IMG/VR virus record: IMGVR_UViG_3300042402_002641
Span: 1 to 64,000 of that record
Source of the DNA: a virus
Reading direction: 5' to 3' (one strand)
Length of the DNA: 64,000 bases
In this document: positions 25,686 to 27,657 of the stretch, one piece after another
Position numbering within the stretch: position 1 is the first letter of the stretch
Layout: the number at the start of each line of letters is the position of its first letter
Position numbers and translations under genes: made by a program
Notes under the pieces: generated by a model
What the model was told of the DNA's origin: nothing
Seen by the model: the letters and a program-made list of their open reading frames with translations, nothing else
Databases searched by the model: none

Positions 25686-26538
25686 GTCCTAAATCCTTGC
25701 GAATTTTTGTAGCACTAATATCTGTTACTGTTTCGTCGAATGATTCTTCACCTGAAGTATATCCTACTCCACGACCCCATCCAATATGCACAATATTAGG
25801 AACTACTTGAATCTCATATTGTCCTTGATATATAGGATCTAAATCACGTTTGATAAATGATTTTACCTGTTCAATAGCAAATGGATTGCTACCTTGCCAG
25901 CCTTGCACATCTCGAACTTGAATGACTACTTGGCCGGTTTTTGCTATTAAGCGTTCGAACAATGCACGATGTCCATCATGCCAAGGTTGCCAGCGACCTA
26001 ACATCTGCACAGTTTCTTTTTGCCAATCAAATGCAGGACGTCTACGATTGGTCAATATGTGATCTCCGATAAATTCTGCCCACTTTTCTGCATTTTGTTC
26101 AGTAACTCGGAAATCATAAACTTCTGGTTCAACGAATGCTGCATTAGTATCAGCATATCGGCTTTCACGGATAGTATCCACCCAAATTGTCCAATCTGCT
26201 TTAAAGTTATTACGCATTTCAACCAATGGTGCGACAAAATCACAGATAACATATTCACCCGAACATTCTAAAGAAAACTGGAGCATGCGCAGACTCTGGC
26301 GAATTCTACCTTCTTTTGAAAAATCCCAATCGTTGAATTTTCTACGAACATCGTCGGCATTGAACCAATCTACTCCTATCTTGAAAAACTCAGGACCCGG
26401 AATACCTTCATAGTTAGATATTTTTTGGGGATTAATTTTCATTAAATCACCATTTGTTTCTAAATAATTTTTTAGAGCCTGTGCAAGATATGTTTTACCG
26501 CTGCCGGGCAATCCCATTATTAAAATCCTAGATGGCAT
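25678..26538 (-). CDS. Bifunctional APS-kinase-like / nucleotidylyltransferase-like protein
   Basis: A 286-residue fusion. The N-terminal P-loop GLPGSGKT (9-16) and DWFNADDVRRKFNDWDFSKE (57-76) match adenylylsulfate kinases (FNADDVRR replaces LDGDNVR). The C-terminal half starts with GRWQPWHDGH (181-190), the (H/W)xGH nucleotidylyltransferase motif, and ends with ISATKIRKDL, its ISxTxxR signature. The kinase could make PAPS for the sulfotransferase-like gene; the second domain's substrate is unknown. The order differs from NadR, which is transferase then kinase. Confidence 0.82.
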   Translation of the reverse strand: MPSRILIMGLPGSGKTYLAQALKNYLETNGDLMKINPQKISNYEGIPGPEFFKIGVDWFNADDVRRKFNDWDFSKEGRIRQSLRMLQFSLECSGEYVICDFVAPLVEMRNNFKADWTIWVDTIRESRYADTNAAFVEPEVYDFRVTEQNAEKWAEFIGDHILTNRRRPAFDWQKETVQMLGRWQPWHDGHRALFERLIAKTGQVVIQVRDVQGWQGSNPFAIEQVKSFIKRDLDPIYQGQYEIQVVPNIVHIGWGRGVGYTSGEESFDETVTDISATKIRKDLGLE

Positions 26539-26588
26539 AATATTTCCTTTAAACTTATAATATATAGCTAAAAATTTTAGGTAATCAT

Positions 26589-26617
26589 AAAAAAAGACTA
26601 CCGAAGTAGTCTTTTTT
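26589..26617 (-). terminator. Rho-independent terminator of the tmRNA
   Basis: GACTAC-TTCG-GTAGTC followed by seven Ts on the minus strand, directly after the tmRNA coding piece. The UUCG tetraloop and U-tract make it a strong terminator. Confidence 0.92.
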
Positions 26618-26997
26618 GGTTGTTTTGTTTACAAGGTATTTCCTACCCCGGACCTGCTGTTTTTTAGGCAGCTAGAGCAAATCTGCTTTCATTAGCAGCA
26701 CCGCGAACGGTGTTACCAGTGAAGCTCATTGCGCTAAAGTCGAATGTATCTGCGTTTGCATTTACGAGTTTTGCTTGATTTACGGTCATCGCCTACCGTG
26801 TTGCCGTCTCTATTATCTCACCCTGTCGAAACCATGGCAGGCCCATCATAAAAGGACTAGAGCAAATACTACAGTAACAATAATAAAGCCAACTAATGTG
26901 CTATATTCGTTATCCATACTAATCTCCTTATGGTGGACCTGGCGGGAGTCGAACCCGCGTCCAGAATGCCTTCACTTTGAAGGGATTACAACAATTT
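26618..26997 (-). ncRNA. ssrA: Circularly permuted (two-piece) tmRNA
   Basis: On the minus strand the acceptor piece comes first (about 26997-26931). It has the T arm GCGGGTTCGACTCCCGC and the 3' strand CAGGTCC, then ACCA with CCA encoded. An 86-nt spacer follows, then the coding piece from 26844. The 5' GGGCCTG of the coding piece pairs with CAGGTCC to make a 7-bp acceptor stem with one G-U pair. The tag frame (26698-26664) encodes AANESRFALAA then TAA, close to betaproteobacterial ANDERFALAA. Permuted tmRNAs are known in Alphaproteobacteria, Cyanobacteria and one betaproteobacterial group. It would rescue stalled ribosomes and tag products for ClpXP or ClpAP. The exact outer ends of both pieces are estimates. 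Confidence 0.95.
26846..26917 (-). CDS. 23-residue transmembrane peptide encoded in the tmRNA intervening segment
   Basis: AAGGAG (26924-26929), 6 nt, ATG, 23 codons, TGA (26848-26846). The product is MDNEYSTLV followed by a fully hydrophobic helix, GFIIVTVVFALVLL. The frame fills the spacer between the two tmRNA pieces: the Shine-Dalgarno begins 1 base after the acceptor CCA, and the stop ends 1 base before the mature 5' end of the coding piece. Acidic head plus one helix resembles small membrane subunits such as CydX or CcoQ, a topology analogy only. Confidence 0.7.
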   Translation of the reverse strand: MDNEYSTLVGFIIVTVVFALVLL

Positions 26998-26998
26998 C

Positions 26999-27202
26999 TT
27001 AGGCGGGCTGAATATTACTAGCCTGCTGTCCTTTCTGACCCTGAGTTACTTCAAACCTTACACTCTGTCCTTCTTGTAGGCTCTTGAAGCCACTCGAATT
27101 AATCTGTGAAAAGTGAGCAAATAAGTCTGCGCCACCATCGTCCGGAGTAATGAATCCAAAACCTTTGGCGTCGTTAAACCATTTTACTTTTCCTGTTACC
27201 AT
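26999..27202 (-). CDS. Cold-shock protein (CspA family)
   Basis: A 67-residue OB-fold protein with both RNA-binding motifs: [15 protein letters not shown] (RNP1) and DLFAHFSQI (RNP2). It binds single-stranded RNA or DNA as an RNA chaperone. Its stop lies within two bases of the tmRNA acceptor piece on the same strand, so the two may be co-transcribed and the tmRNA released by processing. Confidence 0.93.
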
Positions 27203-27246: not shown

Positions 27247-27657
27247 TTATTTAATCCAACCTATGCGTTTTCCCGCAGTTATTCGGCGATCATATTCCTC
27301 GACTGAACTAGGAAATCTCCATGCCCAAACTGCCACGCACAACATAAACAGTGCTGTATATATTATACCACGAACGGGCACTGAAGTCAACCACATGATC
27401 ACCAAACTGGTTGACATCATGAACAGCATGAAATATTTCATTTTCTGCGGGAACACTCTTTTGGTGTTCCAATTTGTGAGAAATGGTCCAAACAACCGGT
27501 GATTGTAGATCCAACGATGCATGCGTTCTGAACCCTTTGAGAAACAGTAGGCCGCGAACACCACAAATATGCTGTAGGGTATGCCAGGGGTAATGACTCC
27601 TATGTAGGCCATACCTAGACTTAGGAATCCCAACGCATTCCAGAATAATTTTTTCAT
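27247..27657 (-). CDS. YbaN/DUF454-family membrane protein
   Basis: A 136-residue protein with about four short membrane helices and the family signature [19 protein letters not shown] and [20 protein letters not shown]. Function unknown in bacteria. Start and the upstream gene's stop overlap by one base. Confidence 0.85.

Follow-up and report, generated by a model that had tools for sequence, protein, structure and literature searches.

Permuted tmRNAs are transcribed with the acceptor piece ahead of the coding piece, and the spacer between them is usually treated as RNA that is discarded on maturation, so a small open reading frame that exactly fills such a spacer raises the question of whether this RNA is also a message. 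The locus that prompted this question lies in the window analyzed here, the first 64,000 nucleotides (64 kb) of a 280,019-base virus record (IMG/VR IMGVR_UViG_3300042402_002641), which belongs to a T4-like giant myovirus as judged by its Gp23-type capsid protein (PF07068, E 3.9e-83, positions 178431-179405). A preliminary description, made from the sequence alone, proposed that an 86-nt spacer contains AAGGAG, a 6-nt gap, ATG, 23 codons and TGA, that this unit starts one base after the acceptor CCA and ends one base before the coding piece, that the product has an acidic head and one membrane helix, and that a spacer which is also a small mRNA would link a membrane peptide to tmRNA processing, its expression being inferred.

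The first step was to ask whether this anatomy is real, and the description proved correct to the base. ARAGORN called a permuted tmRNA, and the match to the Rfam model RF04321 (143.7 bits against a cut-off of 47, model positions 1-213 complete) agreed with this call, with the acceptor piece upstream of the coding piece and a tag frame that ends in an ALAA-like degron (ESRFALAA, then stop). The spacer reads U-AAGGAG-AUUAGU-AUG-(22 further codons)-UGA-U, and the 23-residue product has a maximal 15-residue Kyte-Doolittle mean of 3.18. The tag of 31 residues is unusually long, since the most common length is 10 (PMC11915505); tags of 23-31 residues, two to three times the usual length, were also found in six related loci (numbered L113, L050, L212, L207, L191 and L261), many of them with a shared core FDFSAMSFTGN before the ALAA end, while other long tags have different cores. 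The features of the locus are collected in the table below.

Features of the permuted tmRNA locus and its surroundings (positions in the 64-kb window)
Feature	Position	Strand	Details
Candidate sigma-70-type promoter	27362-27390	-	TTGACT-17-TATAAT, 11 of 12; upstream of the cold-shock gene; consensus match only, 4 found in the scan against 2.7 expected
Cold-shock-domain protein gene	26999-27202	-	PF00313; directly upstream of the tmRNA, probably co-transcribed
Permuted tmRNA, ARAGORN call	26573-27023	-	
Permuted tmRNA, RF04321 match	26993-26664	-	
tmRNA acceptor piece	26931-26993	-	Ends in CCA; 5' limit as in the Rfam match
CCA	26933-26931	-	
Spacer (intervening segment)	26930-26845	-	86 nt
5' strand of the closing stem	26919-26930	-	UAAGGAGAUUAG; contains the SD
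Shine-Dalgarno sequence (SD)	26929-26924	-	AAGGAG; 6 nt (ATTAGT) before ATG, starting 1 nt after the base that follows CCA
Spacer ORF	26846-26917	-	23 codons plus TGA; MDNEYSTLVGFIIVTVVFALVLL; acidic head, one membrane helix
ATG	26917-26915	-	
3' strand of the closing stem	26849-26860	-	CUAGUCCUUUUA; encodes the last residues of the peptide
TGA	26848-26846	-	
tmRNA coding piece	26664-26844	-	From GGG (first base 26844) to the tag stop, taken as the limit without mapping of the mature 3' end
Tag reading frame	26664-26759	-	ANADTFDFSAMSFTGNTVRGAANESRFALAA
Candidate terminator hairpin	26590-26617	-	Near-palindromic, T-rich on either strand (listed on + by the scan); consensus match only

The next question was whether related loci contain the same layout. 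Pattern scans of 2.9 million viral contigs gave more than 250 loci, nearly all of them permuted tmRNAs, and most of the spacers are hairpins without a frame. Eighty-nine loci (61 distinct spacers) carry the SD-ATG layout, and in 54 distinct spacers the frame stops exactly at UGAU before GGG; two of the patterns used were selected for SD and ATG but not for an open frame or for hydrophobicity, and these counts are lower bounds. The peptides, which are mostly 19-26 residues long, were grouped by eye into families: MNDDLTPLAIGVVVVLVVFALVLL, MDNEYS..., MDTGYS..., MDDLQRF..., MDHEAVLLGAFVLIGLVLVFF and MYQVGETI... (F1); MTKTPYAIVVILLIVFVCIHVFL, MKTYEF..., MNPAYV... and MQKCRACD... (F2); MDPEVKYQYTCGILSVIILVFLIFFL and MDEEM... 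(F3); MIEAIGFF... (F4); MILPSVLGLVIFVLLIVFL (F5); MFDEWHWVYLWGILIWINYIFC... (F6); and two groups that are not membrane-like, MKEKILTAIEMIAEFLKGIAQSL (F7, amphipathic) and MNILDLPEEYVPLVPDDFSFYPVSL (F8). There are exceptions to the layout, since the frames of F6 and of locus L253 run on past the border into the coding piece, the leader of loci L348 and L349 (AAAAAAAGAC) has no clear SD, and locus L040 carries a shortened frame (MKKDLNPIAI, then stop) that resembles the head of MNDDLTPLAI... and is probably an F1 copy which lost its membrane part while the stem stayed. In addition, the same spacer peptide is joined to different coding pieces and tags in L125 and L161, and in L219, L221, L222 and L239, pointing to mosaic exchange within tmRNA genes.

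Three tests were used to determine if these frames are more than chance. First, among 148 distinct phage spacers fetched without regard to any ORF, 21 have an ATG frame of at least 15 codons ending at the terminal stop (dinucleotide-shuffle mean 6.3, maximum 13 in 200 runs), and 20 of these 21 pass a hydrophobicity threshold that is passed by 1% of shuffled frames; in the 54-spacer set, 48 are strongly hydrophobic against 3.8% of open shuffles. The same unselected set shows that about 86% of distinct phage spacers have no gene, and that a stop codon one base before GGG is present in 145 of 148 (98%; TGAT 106, TAAT 36, TGAC 3) with or without an ORF, so the fit at the 3' border emphasized in the preliminary description is not by itself evidence, and the idea that the terminal TGA was selected for the ORF was dropped; this stop is a general feature of the processing site and is probably part of the RNase P site.

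Second, the pattern of codon evolution was examined. In the MNDDL family (13 coding sequences), 27 changes fall on position 3, 14 on position 1 and 6 on position 2, and there are 3.8 amino-acid changes per pair against 7.7 expected when the same substitutions are placed at random. A codon model gave an omega of 0.126 for this, the largest, family (likelihood ratio against omega 1 of 76.9), and of 0.129 (likelihood ratio 64.2) after removal of the last five codons that also serve the stem, while the corresponding pairs of omega values in three smaller families point in the same direction (MDTGY, 0.12 and 0.05; MDPE, 0.26 and 0.14; MKSY-MNPA, 0.35 and 0.31). These alignments are short (16-25 codons), in the largest set the model has more parameters than sites, and the null used the same topology and a grid of kappa, so the likelihood ratio is approximate, but the position bias agrees with it. 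The subfamily to which the window belongs, with three sequences, is too small for the test to be significant alone.

Third, linkage to tmRNA was assessed by scanning the viral collection for two peptide motifs by degenerate codons, with no tmRNA condition. The C-terminal motif V[VIM]FAxVxL-stop gave 40 loci, 35 of which lie inside permuted-tmRNA spacers while the other five are unrelated frames, and the motif [IVM]C[IVM]HVF[LF]-stop gave nine of nine inside spacers, or 44 of 49 hits in all. No example of these two motifs as a free-standing gene was found.

How does a reading frame coexist with the structure of the spacer? The two ends of the spacer pair, with or without an ORF. In ORF-type spacers the first pair is T-A in 42 and A-T in 11 of 54 (98% paired; shuffled mean 66%, maximum 83%), and pairs 4-5, which hold the two Gs of the SD, are mostly G-U in the ungapped register, although a shifted G-C register is possible in F1. 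ORF-less spacers show strong covariation at pairs 1, 4, 5 and 6 and a more stable stem (-11.4 against -7.8 kcal/mol). Own leader/tail duplexes are stronger than swapped ones (-7.7 against -6.0) and than those with shuffled tails (-4.0). In the predicted fold of the window's precursor, the acceptor stem, the CCA region and the closing stem form one nearly continuous helix that contains the SD, but its overall energy is only 1.6 sd better than shuffles. Across the 54 spacers, the SD core is predicted to be unpaired with a mean probability of 0.14 in the full precursor, 0.13 in the excised spacer and 0.50 when the last 14 nt before GATGGG and the coding piece are not yet made, the value being higher in the nascent form in 54 of 54; these are thermodynamic predictions that do not include ribosomes or proteins. 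The most economical reading of these predictions is that the peptide is made mainly from nascent transcripts. Some ORF-less spacers (loci L128, L133, L140, L142, L154 and L169) contain T-arm-like stretches (GGTTCGANTCC), as if derived from tRNA genes.

The distribution of the layout was also analyzed. It was not found in a pattern scan of 84,980 bacterial and archaeal genomes, which gave 13 hits, none with a tmRNA signature. A covariance-model search of one bacterial class returned almost only weak, probably non-permuted matches (4 of 274 genomes over the cut-off), and the one strong bacterial locus whose junction could be read has almost no spacer, so these matches do not amount to a sampled betaproteobacterial host control. 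Searches of cultured phages gave one chance-level match for three peptides, and DNA searches found cold-shock genes and T-arm or acceptor stretches; no cultured phage with the gene was found. Profile searches with ten representative peptides matched no family in Pfam (best E 0.23) or, above noise, in PHROGs (E 0.036-0.1). In a capsid-protein tree, ORF-type and ORF-less phages are intermixed in two deeply separated clades, with close relatives that differ (for example, phage G016 has the ORF and G022 does not; G006 has it and G031 and G037 do not), so the spacer gene has been gained, lost or exchanged repeatedly, and the tmRNA can do without the peptide. The upstream genes (cold shock, oxygenase-like or other) differ between loci but usually run in the same direction and end about 67 nt before the end of CCA, with their stop codon directly against the 5' end of the acceptor piece in most loci, so the tmRNA rides on different transcripts. 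A T4-type late promoter (TATAAATA) was not found near the locus; two occur in the window, as by chance.

Taken together, the observation made in the preliminary description holds, and its interpretation of the spacer as a small mRNA is supported in the sense of selected coding sequence: the conservation of SD, ATG and frame with synonymous-biased substitution in related loci, which had been proposed as a test, was found. This support comes with the qualifications that the ORF is a variant found in a minority of permuted phage tmRNAs and that the link to tmRNA processing rests on structure prediction and covariation. We favor, with reasonable though not full confidence, a model in which the precursor of this phage tmRNA is a dual-function RNA whose spacer is a real, selected micro-gene for a single-span membrane peptide made alongside the phage tmRNA during infection. 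In this view, the SD forms one strand of the stem that closes the spacer and stacks on the acceptor stem; while the RNA is being transcribed, the SD and ATG would be free for ribosomes to load and make the peptide, and once the 3' strand and the GGG acceptor strand are made, the stem would shut the SD and present the spacer to the tRNA-processing enzymes, with removal by RNase P between UGAU and GGG and by 3'-end processing at CCA. At 23 residues the peptide is shorter than the ribosomal exit tunnel, so it would insert into the membrane after release, and it most likely acts in the host inner membrane as an accessory infection factor, although a membrane role is not universal because the groups beginning MKEKI and MNILD are selected or constant but not membrane-like. 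The anatomy, the purifying selection, the membrane-like composition, the covarying closing stem and the near-exclusive occurrence of two peptide motifs in tmRNA spacers are established by sequence analysis, whereas translation, its timing by the stem, the cutting of the precursor into two pieces, membrane insertion and the target of the peptide are inferred.

Other readings of these data are less likely. It remains possible, though this is tentative, that the closing stem is a switch which makes peptide synthesis and tmRNA maturation alternative fates of the same precursor, so that the phage reads out ribosome availability and sets both its ribosome-rescue RNA and a membrane effector from it. 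A less likely proposal is that the act of translating the spacer, rather than the free peptide, matters, with a ribosome terminating at UGA covering the GGGCCUG acceptor strand and keeping the precursor from folding, so that translation capacity sets the rate of tmRNA maturation as in leader-peptide control. This proposal is compatible with the geometry (a stop codon next to the acceptor strand, an SD inside the processing stem, and a weaker stem when the spacer bears an ORF), but selection on the amino-acid sequence along the whole frame and strong hydrophobicity are not needed for a mere translation sensor, and most phages process their tmRNA without any ORF. More doubtful still is a small membrane toxin or lysis/exclusion peptide of the type I toxin kind, in which SD occlusion by the 3' end would keep the message silent until RNA turnover or host change releases it and the peptide then depolarizes the membrane. 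The size (under about 60 residues, with one hydrophobic helix) fits such toxins, and 5'-3' pairing that hides the SD is a feature of hok-like messages; however, 3' trimming that would free the SD also removes the end of the ORF, two peptide groups are not membrane-like, and the ten peptides searched in Pfam and PHROGs gave no toxin family match. A single consensus promoter scan, a limited look for an antisense RNA, showed no plus-strand promoter-like site in the spacer and one at 26532-26561 at chance frequency. The view that there is no gene, the frame being a by-product of a U-rich spacer stem, the obligatory UGAU before GGG and an AAGG that belongs to the stem, fits the presence of the terminal stop and closing stem in ORF-less spacers too but is contradicted by the synonymous-biased substitution outside the stem, the hydrophobicity, the ORF excess over shuffles and the conserved SD-ATG spacing.

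Comparison with known systems shows both shared features and differences. Circularly permuted (two-piece) tmRNAs (RF04321 and RF01850; PMC11915505), which have been reported mainly in aquatic phages (the Melnitz phage study, PMC9004378), share the order of acceptor piece, CCA, intervening segment and coding piece, the T-arm, UUUCGAC, the tag frame and the closing hairpin of the spacer, but here the intervening segment carries its own SD and a selected reading frame. The 2025 tmRNA database paper defines the intervening sequence as absent from mature tmRNA and notes one with a tRNA gene and one with a repetitive element (PMC11915505); in passages found by text search neither paper mentions a coding spacer, although only open-licence papers were searched, so an earlier report elsewhere cannot be excluded. 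Dual-function small RNAs such as SgrS/SgrT and SR1/SR1P (PMC5521070) are also structured non-coding RNAs that encode a very small protein, but in this case the ORF lies in a part that is removed on maturation and the RNA is a tmRNA precursor. Type I toxins and other single-span bacterial micropeptides (Ibs, TisB, YohP, KdpF) have 19-30 residues and one hydrophobic helix, with the SD hidden by 5'-3' pairing in some toxin messages, while the spacer peptides have no sequence match in Pfam, none above noise in PHROGs and no known antisense RNA, and their gene is nested in tmRNA. Genes in introns of tmRNA or rRNA (homing endonucleases, S23p in 23S rRNA intervening sequences; PMC11915505, PMC4990558) likewise lie inside a segment removed from a stable RNA, but the spacer gene is far shorter and non-enzymatic, and its coding sequence also forms the processing stem.

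These findings indicate that the removed segment of a permuted tmRNA, treated as discarded RNA, is a protein gene in many giant aquatic phages, where natural selection has kept the peptide and the RNA is very likely also a message. They define several unannotated micropeptide families, two of which were searched for freely in viruses and found only inside tmRNA precursors apart from the five unrelated frames, and suggest that small-protein surveys should not mask tmRNA genes. The predicted burial of the SD in the processing stem provides a testable reason why RNA maturation and peptide synthesis could be coupled in these phages.
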